Shown piece after piece: positions 9,132 through 11,722 of a stretch of DNA of 64,000 bases (position 1 is the stretch's first letter; every line of letters starts with the position of its first letter). This DNA comes from Moorella thermoacetica (GTDB taxonomy: Bacteria > Bacillota > DSM-521 > Neomoorellales > Neomoorellaceae). The notes under the pieces were generated by a model. The model saw nothing but the letters and a program-made list of their open reading frames with translations. It searched no databases and had not been told where the DNA came from. A program made the translations under genes and the position numbers. The stretch lies in assembly GCF_001267405.1 (NCBI RefSeq), contig NZ_CP012369.1, positions 1,886,001-1,950,000 on the forward strand, written 5' to 3'.

Positions 9132-10421
9132 CTAAAATACCGGGATTGTTGAGTTAGCTTTGGGCATAACAGTTACCACCTCTGCATCTGGCAATTCCTT
9201 CAAGGCCATGTTTATGGCGGCCTGTAGGTCGGGGGCTTTCCGGACCATCATTATCCGGGCCAGGTTGTCGTCCACGCCGTCGCTCACCAGGATTACCCGT
9301 GCCCGGACCAGGGAACGGCACCAGAGGAAGGCTTTGTGCCGGCCCATTTGAAATTCGCCTTGTTTAAAGACCTTTATTACCTCCTCCGGAGTATTGCCAG
9401 CCTGCATGGTGTCGATGAAGCCCTTCTCCCCGGCACCCTCCCGGCATTCGGCGCAGAGAATGATCACTCCCCCCTCTTTAACCAATCTAGTACCGTGGGC
9501 CAGGCCCTTCTGGGCCTGGTAGAGGTTGATATCCTTGGGAAAACCGCCGGGAGAAACAATGGCCACGTCGGCCAGTGCCGGTACCGGTACTTCGCTTACC
9601 TGACGGGCAACGGCCACCCCGGCTCGGTGAGCCGCCAGGTAATGGCCGGCTACTGTCCGGACAATCCCTTTATGGCTATTCAGGATAACGTTAATAATTA
9701 GGTTAATACCCACCAGGCCGCCGATTTCATCAATATCCTCCCGGGCCGGGTTGCCCTCTATCCGTCCCAGGGTTGCTTCCGGCTCTACCAGGTGGGCGTG
9801 GTTGGCGCGTATGGTGGCCTCACCACCGCAGCCAATGACCAGTGACTTGGACCCGGCCGTGTAACCGACAAATTGGTGAGGGTCAATCATGCCGATCAGA
9901 ATCCGGCCGTCGGCCTCCAGGTAGTGGCGGTTGATCCAGATAGGGGTCCCCCGGGAGGAAACACCAATCTGCTGCAGGATCCCCGGAGCATAGGCGTCGT
10001 GGCTGATCACCTTTACCCGGGCGGCTACCTCTGGACCCACAATCAGGGGAAACTCCTCTGGTGGCGCCGGCCGGTGCAGTCCGGTCCCCACCAGTATGGT
10101 GACCTGTTCGTCTTTGATGCCGATAGCGTTTAGTTTTTCTAATAAAACTGGTAAAATAACATCATTGGGCACCGGCCGGGTGAGGTCGCTGACGACGATC
10201 ACCACCTGCCGGACCCCCCGCAGTTCCTCCACCCCATGGTTGCCGATGGGTTGCTCCAGGGCCCGGCGCACATCGGCCGACGGATCAGGTACCCCGGCTA
10301 TCTCACTGGGCACGACCTCCTTAACTTTTATACCCTCTGGCAACTCGCCGACAAGGTATCCTTGACCATAGGGTATCTTGAGGGCTAGTTGTTTATACTT
10401 GGGAACCTCCCGATTTCGCAT
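9132..10421 (-). CDS. larA: LarA-family nickel-dependent racemase/epimerase (lactate racemase-like)
   Basis: A 429-residue DUF2088/LarA family protein. Family landmarks are VVIVVSDLTRPVPNDVILPV, GTGLHRP (first conserved His), SHDAY (second), and GMIDPHQFVGYTAGSKS (third). LarA uses a nickel-pincer cofactor to racemise lactate, and relatives act on other 2-hydroxyacids. The segment GTPIWINRHY has Arg where I expect the cofactor-linked Lys, which may mean a different specificity or reflect my alignment. ATG 10421 gives the usual N-terminus, though its ribosome site is weak. larB, larC and larE are absent from the window. A decayed uxaA lies head-to-head, so the neighbourhood once handled sugar acids. 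Confidence 0.8.
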   Translation of the reverse strand: MRNREVPKYKQLALKIPYGQGYLVGELPEGIKVKEVVPSEIAGVPDPSADVRRALEQPIGNHGVEELRGVRQVVIVVSDLTRPVPNDVILPVLLEKLNAIGIKDEQVTILVGTGLHRPAPPEEFPLIVGPEVAARVKVISHDAYAPGILQQIGVSSRGTPIWINRHYLEADGRILIGMIDPHQFVGYTAGSKSLVIGCGGEATIRANHAHLVEPEATLGRIEGNPAREDIDEIGGLVGINLIINVILNSHKGIVRTVAGHYLAAHRAGVAVARQVSEVPVPALADVAIVSPGGFPKDINLYQAQKGLAHGTRLVKEGGVIILCAECREGAGEKGFIDTMQAGNTPEEVIKVFKQGEFQMGRHKAFLWCRSLVRARVILVSDGVDDNLARIMMVRKAPDLQAAINMALKELPDAEVVTVMPKANSTIPVF

Positions 10422-10443
10422 TTCCCAGTACGTCGACCTCCGC

Positions 10444-10656
10444 GGCTCCCAGCCAACCGAGGGCAATATCGCCGGCGGCTCGGTCCTGCATTTCTTTACC
10501 CCCGGCCAGGGTAATATCGTAGGTAACCCCGTCATCCCGGTGATCAAGATCTATGCCAACCCTGTCAATGTAGCCACCATGAGCGAGGACATTGATGTGG
10601 ATGCCGAGGCCCTAAGCCACAAGGAATTCATCCTTACCAACCGTTCCGCATCATAA
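10444..10656 (+). pseudogene. Altronate dehydratase (UxaA family) remnant
   Basis: The plus-strand frame reads GSQPTEGNIAGG joined directly to SVLHFFTPGQGNIVGNPVIP and then VIKIYANPVNVATMSEDIDV. The first piece precedes the metal-binding middle of UxaA and the second is its C-terminal region. Roughly 50-100 residues between them are missing and the tail stops early after EFILTNRSAS. There is no start codon context. It is a deletion derivative overlapping the 5' flank of larA. Confidence 0.7.
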
Positions 10657-10687: not shown

Positions 10688-11722
10688 CTATATAAAATAC
10701 TCAACTTTAGCCCTCGGTAAATAAGTAGCTACCATTTCTTTGAAAAAAGCCTCCAGCGCCGTTCTTACTTCAGCGGGGTAAACATACTTACCATAACCAA
10801 ATTGACCATACCGAAAAGTCCTCTCTTCTTCATCTAGAGGCAATTTTGTATTGGGAAATAGCGTTTCAATGGAAGTCTTGGCCCGTTTGGTAAAGCGATG
10901 GGTTATTAGCTCTAATGTCAGGTCATTCGATTCGGCAAGCAACGGTTGCCTGGCAATTACTTGAAAAAGATGGCGATATTGCTGCTGCCACCCTTCCAAA
11001 TAAAATATAGGAGCAATAATGAAACCTGTCAGGTAACCTCCCCCGGCCATCTGTGCCGCCGCCGCCAGCCGTTGCCCCAGGGGCGGGGTACCATGCTCAA
11101 AACGCTTAATTATGTTTTCTGCATTGATACTAAAGCGAAAGCGGGTATGGCCCCGGTGGTCCAGGTTTAATAGCCCGTCTACATCAGTAAATTTAGTAGC
11201 AACCCGCAAGCGCCCCAGGGGTTGCCTGGCCATAAATTCAATAGCAGCGGCAAGGCTGCCGGTATACTTTTCTACCGGCACGGGATCTGAGGTGGCTGAA
11301 GCTTCAAAGTATGTTACTTCGGGGTCGCGCCGGTTAATATAATCCCGGGCCAGAGCGAGGATTTCAGCGATATTAACATAAATCTTTTGATAGGGCTTAC
11401 GCCCAAAATGAGTAAACAGGTAACAGTATTCACACATGGCCGGACAACTTGTGACCAGGGGTAACTGGTAATGGGCCGAGGGCTTGCAGGTTTGAAAATC
11501 CCTGCTCCTTCGCACCCCTACTACCAGGGTACGTTTAGCTTCCAGAAAACTCTCCCGGGCTGTTTTGCCCGGGATACAAGTAACACGGTTGTGAGATGGG
11601 GTCATCAATACTTCGACTCTTTCTTCATGGAAGCGTTGATATAGTTTTCGCCCCAGGGGATAGTTCAAAGCTTCCGGTTCGAAGACAACCCGTTTTAATT
11701 CAACAGTCACCCTTAAAATCAC
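10688..11722 (-). CDS. splB: Spore photoproduct lyase (radical SAM) with Cys-to-Ala change at the H-donor site
   Basis: A 344-residue radical SAM enzyme that reverses the 5-thyminyl-5,6-dihydrothymine spore photoproduct in DNA during germination. The cluster motif is CPAMCEYCY (Cys93, 97, 100), with the two flanking tyrosines of the radical relay kept (Tyr99, Tyr101). Family text KPSAHYQLPLVTSC, TRFRFSINAENIIKRFEHGT and the C-terminus KVEYFI match Bacillus SplB end to end. Bacillus has FEASCTSD, where Cys141 gives a hydrogen atom to the product radical; here the text is FEASATSD (Ala143), exactly 43 residues after the last cluster Cys as in Bacillus. The start is GTG 11722 with a poor ribosome site. 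No sigma-G promoter was obvious to me. Confidence 0.9.
   Translation of the reverse strand: MILRVTVELKRVVFEPEALNYPLGRKLYQRFHEERVEVLMTPSHNRVTCIPGKTARESFLEAKRTLVVGVRRSRDFQTCKPSAHYQLPLVTSCPAMCEYCYLFTHFGRKPYQKIYVNIAEILALARDYINRRDPEVTYFEASATSDPVPVEKYTGSLAAAIEFMARQPLGRLRVATKFTDVDGLLNLDHRGHTRFRFSINAENIIKRFEHGTPPLGQRLAAAAQMAGGGYLTGFIIAPIFYLEGWQQQYRHLFQVIARQPLLAESNDLTLELITHRFTKRAKTSIETLFPNTKLPLDEEERTFRYGQFGYGKYVYPAEVRTALEAFFKEMVATYLPRAKVEYFI

Follow-up and report, generated by a model that had tools for sequence, protein, structure and literature searches.

The window, that is, the whole stretch of 64,000 nucleotides of Moorella thermoacetica DNA that was analysed, carries a spore photoproduct lyase (SPL) gene on its minus strand (Table 1). 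Enzymes of the SPL family convert 5-thyminyl-5,6-dihydrothymine into two thymines, and this spore photoproduct lesion forms in DNA in the setting of small acid-soluble spore proteins (SASPs). The open reading frame matches two family profiles, NCBIfam TIGR04070 (526.4 bits for a cut-off of 400, residues 8-344) and Pfam PF20903 (422.9 bits for a cut-off of 27). Its exact start, set here at a GTG codon, is uncertain; the family matches begin at residue 8-11. In a profile search of the genome, no SPL other than this one passed the Pfam cut-off, and the sole other match scored 20 bits. Three PF00269 matches over cut-off in the same kind of search show that SASPs are encoded in this genome as well.

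Table 1 Features of the SPL locus (positions in the window)
Feature	Position	Strand	Remarks
Spore photoproduct lyase (SPL) gene	10688..11722	-	344 aa from GTG; TIGR04070 and PF20903 matches
Codon 79, TGC, Cys (QTCKPS); proposed hydrogen donor	11486..11488	-	Pairs with Geobacillus Ser76
Radical-SAM motif CX3CX2C (Cys93, Cys97, Cys100)	11423..11446	-	Read from translation and alignment
Relay tyrosines Tyr99 and Tyr101 (Bacillus Tyr97, Tyr99)	11420..11428	-	Invariant in 185/185 SPLs
Codon 143, GCC, Ala (FEASATSD); site of Bacillus donor Cys141 / Geobacillus Cys140	11294..11296	-	From the alignment
Nickel-dependent malate racemase, LarAH5 family	9132..10547	-	579.8 bits for a cut-off of 462

Two cysteine positions in the Moorella enzyme

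The Moorella SPL was aligned with the solved Geobacillus SPL chain, whose numbering is used below with an inferred offset of 27. The alignment has zero gaps over query residues 10-343. Because it is gap-free, Cys79 pairs with Ser76 of Geobacillus and Ala143 pairs with Cys140. The enzyme therefore shows a Cys at position 76 and a residue other than Cys at position 140, which is the clostridial-type combination, and not the Bacillus-type one with Cys at 140 and Ser at 76. A preliminary description of the locus had read an alanine in place of the Bacillus donor cysteine, a cysteine where Bacillus-type enzymes have a serine, and two retained relay tyrosines. The codons and the Geobacillus alignment agree with all three readings. 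The identity and the alignment of the cysteine pair, as well as its conservation and exclusivity described below, are read directly from the sequences.

The chance that the GCC of codon 143 reflects an error in sequencing or assembly is practically nil. No support for such an error was found, and it is refuted by independent Moorella assemblies that show Ala in the same column. The error is also needless, since every other Moorella locus fetched carries the same Cys79/Ala143 pair.

An alanine at this site is also what characterizes the inactivating C141A mutant of the Bacillus enzyme (PMC3742179). This likeness is in favor of a Moorella enzyme that has lost its donor, is impaired or decaying, and releases misprocessed product as the mutant does. 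We consider this highly improbable. The Cys79/Ala143 pair is common to all Moorella loci and to more than 100 other SPLs. Moreover, the reading frame is open and intact, and the gene is under purifying selection, with dN/dS of 0.15 (dN 0.023, dS 0.153) in the comparison with M. thermoacetica DSM 21394. Compared with three other Moorella, dN is about 0.145 and dS is 1.6-2.1, which is near saturation. Finally, the SPL of Clostridium acetobutylicum, which is of the same type, is active according to PMC5368176. The SPL should be marked as intact in the annotation of the Moorella genome.

Distribution of the two cysteines

SPL-family open reading frames were gathered from 299 genomes drawn evenly across the phylum, from 151 genomes of the class to which the Bacillus-like SPLs belong, and from the orders of two odd families. 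Two hundred sequences were aligned, of which 185 are SPLs proper. The pair Cys76/Ala140 is found in 106 of these 185 SPLs, including the enzyme of the window, Cys76/Ser140 in 16 and Ser76/Cys140 in 63, so that a cysteine is present at position 76 in 122 of them in total. None of the 185 aligned SPLs has both Cys76 and Cys140, and none has neither. The two columns lie 64 residues apart in 180 SPLs and 63 residues apart in the remaining 5. Scanning genomes with DNA patterns designed for a two-cysteine enzyme gave no match, but a positive control of the same layout missed the gene in genomes where its presence is known, and the initial pattern had also not passed a local control. Because of this failed control, we base the absence of two-cysteine SPLs on the 185 aligned sequences only.

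When the phylum draw and the Moorella loci are considered, the Cys76 states amount to 107 rows with Ala140, counting the enzyme of the window and an engineered Geobacillus chain, and 14 rows with Ser140, versus 7 rows with Ser76/Cys140. From these counts, the Cys76 form is the rule in an evenly drawn sample of the phylum. Hence, the Bacillus enzyme, on which studies of the mechanism were based, is not the commonest SPL form in such a sample.

Within the Cys76 type, Cys76 is invariant (122/122) and, outside the cluster motif, the alignment reveals no other conserved cysteine. Since all relatives of this type carry a cysteine there and no other non-cluster cysteine is conserved, the presence of Cys79 in the Moorella enzyme is not due to chance. 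The preliminary description had proposed an alignment of SPLs from Moorella and relatives. Ala143 does fall in the column of the Bacillus cysteine, as was claimed, but the conserved cysteine of the enzyme's own class lies elsewhere, at residue 79. As residue 79 is the conserved cysteine of the class, a conserved Cys located elsewhere is in effect the outcome of this alignment.

The hydrogen could come from another source, such as Cys49, a tyrosine or a small thiol in solution, with Cys79 playing a structural role. Nothing direct favors this possibility beyond the existence of Cys49 as a further cysteine in the Moorella enzyme, and we regard it as very unlikely. Cys49 is kept in just 11 of the 122 SPLs of the Cys76 type; as it is not conserved, it was rejected as a class-wide donor. 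A purely structural role of Cys79 would not predict a strict alternation between Cys76 and Cys140. Such an alternation would be expected, judging from the sequences, if both positions were alternative sites of the same hydrogen donor. That each of 185 enzymes has strictly one cysteine or the other is evidence from evolution, independent of biochemistry, that the same job is done at both positions.

Other features of the alignment were observed. Four positions, 84, 86, 213 and 308, co-vary with the donor site, being His, Gln, Pro and Phe in the Cys76 class and Glu, Ala, Ser and Tyr in the Cys140 class. This may correspond to tuning of the pocket or to mere ancestry. Nine rows (L127-L135) are SPL-like paralogues with Asn76/Ser140. 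They have the cluster motif and both tyrosines, neither of the donor cysteines, and a motif that reads EIG[S]NSD; this family resembles TIGR03886. Two of the genomes drawn from the phylum have an SPL match broken into two adjacent pieces (G031:C12:19795-20797 and G084:C2:34389-35395), possibly corresponding to a frameshifted or decaying gene.

Proposed mechanism

The Moorella enzyme is very probably a functional SPL of the clostridial (Cys76) class that uses Cys79 as hydrogen donor and is otherwise ordinary. The proposal that Cys79 might stand in for the absent cysteine is supported by its invariance in the class, by its mutual exclusion with Cys140 in 185 SPLs and by its agreement with published results on other SPLs (PMC5368176, PMC9692996). 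We infer the chemistry from the published work on the C. acetobutylicum, Bacillus and Geobacillus enzymes. The cluster would cleave SAM and the resulting 5'-deoxyadenosyl radical would abstract H6 of the spore photoproduct. Fragmentation of the dimer would then yield a thymine allylic radical, which would receive a hydrogen from Cys79 and not from a cysteine at position 143. The thiyl radical would be re-reduced via Tyr101, with the help of Tyr99, and SAM would be regenerated.

Evolution of the donor site

Two trees, of 192 and 52 rows, were built with columns 76 and 140 left out. In each of them, the donor state has to change twice between Cys76 and Cys140. The Ser76/Cys140 pair is found in Bacilli and, separately, in one non-Bacilli family (f114; L035 and L136 from genomes G264 and G300), which apparently switched its donor position independently. 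A single clade containing all the Ser76/Cys140 rows was rejected with p-AU 0.021, a test weakened by the choice of the group after seeing the data and by the long branch of f114. The position of this branch is not the same in the two trees. Two sequences of the Bacillus class (L192 and L193, from genomes G323 and G341, family f137) are Cys76/Ser140 and adjoin the main Ser76/Cys140 group, with a support of 80 in the larger tree. Because they keep Cys76/Ser140 on a branch next to this group, they may sit close to the donor switch.

When the tree is rooted on distant paralogues, the basal lineages are all Cys76, suggesting that this state is ancestral. This ancestry is tentative, given the great length of the outgroup branch (4.3). 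In this scenario, the Bacillus form would derive from a move of the donor across the pocket that occurred two or more times, in Bacilli and in a single family outside them, and no living enzyme would have both cysteines. We judge the chances that this whole scenario is correct to be evenly balanced. The preliminary description had presented the Moorella enzyme as an odd one that had lost its catalytic donor. This view is not supported, as the type is in the majority in the even phylum sample and looks ancestral rather than the result of a loss. The ancestral look of the Cys76 form, together with the apparent origin of the Bacillus form on at least two occasions, may be the less appreciated part of these results.

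Comparison with known SPLs

No paper on the Moorella SPL was found in the literature. Like the Moorella enzyme, the SPLs of Bacillus subtilis and Geobacillus belong to the same family and have the cluster motif and the tyrosine pair, and the Moorella SPL is 47.7% identical to a Bacilli homologue. These enzymes differ by having Ser76/Cys140 where the Moorella enzyme has Cys76/Ala140, and also at positions 84, 86, 213 and 308.

The closest precedent in a natural enzyme is that of C. acetobutylicum, SPL(Ca), for which PMC5368176, describing Yang et al. 2017, reports a conserved cysteine at C74. In the same paper, C74 is projected on the side of the pocket opposite the tyrosine. As in the Moorella enzyme, the donor cysteine is away from the Bacillus 141 site, and SPL(Ca) itself is reported there to be active. 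The species is different, and the probable equivalence of C74 and Cys79 is drawn from this paper and the class-wide alignment. SPL(Ca) turns SP TpT into about 80% TpT and 20% TpT-SO2- (PMC5368176). Because of this leak of about 20% with the dinucleotide, the new position of the donor may be a less favorable one.

In the PDB sequence set, the Geobacillus SPL chain of entries 4rh0 and 4rh1 reads Cys76/Ala140, exactly the Moorella pair. This Geobacillus thermodenitrificans double mutant, whose structure has been solved, presumably comes from the work of Benjdia et al. 2014. Whereas the pair was engineered into a Bacillus-type enzyme in that case, it is natural in Moorella. A review states that the relocated cysteine gives back activity in the rewired Geobacillus enzyme (PMC9692996). 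An SPL with a relocated cysteine is therefore already known. From the report on C74 of SPL(Ca) and from the rewired Geobacillus chain, the Moorella SPL, which is neither broken nor new, is a natural example of this described variant.
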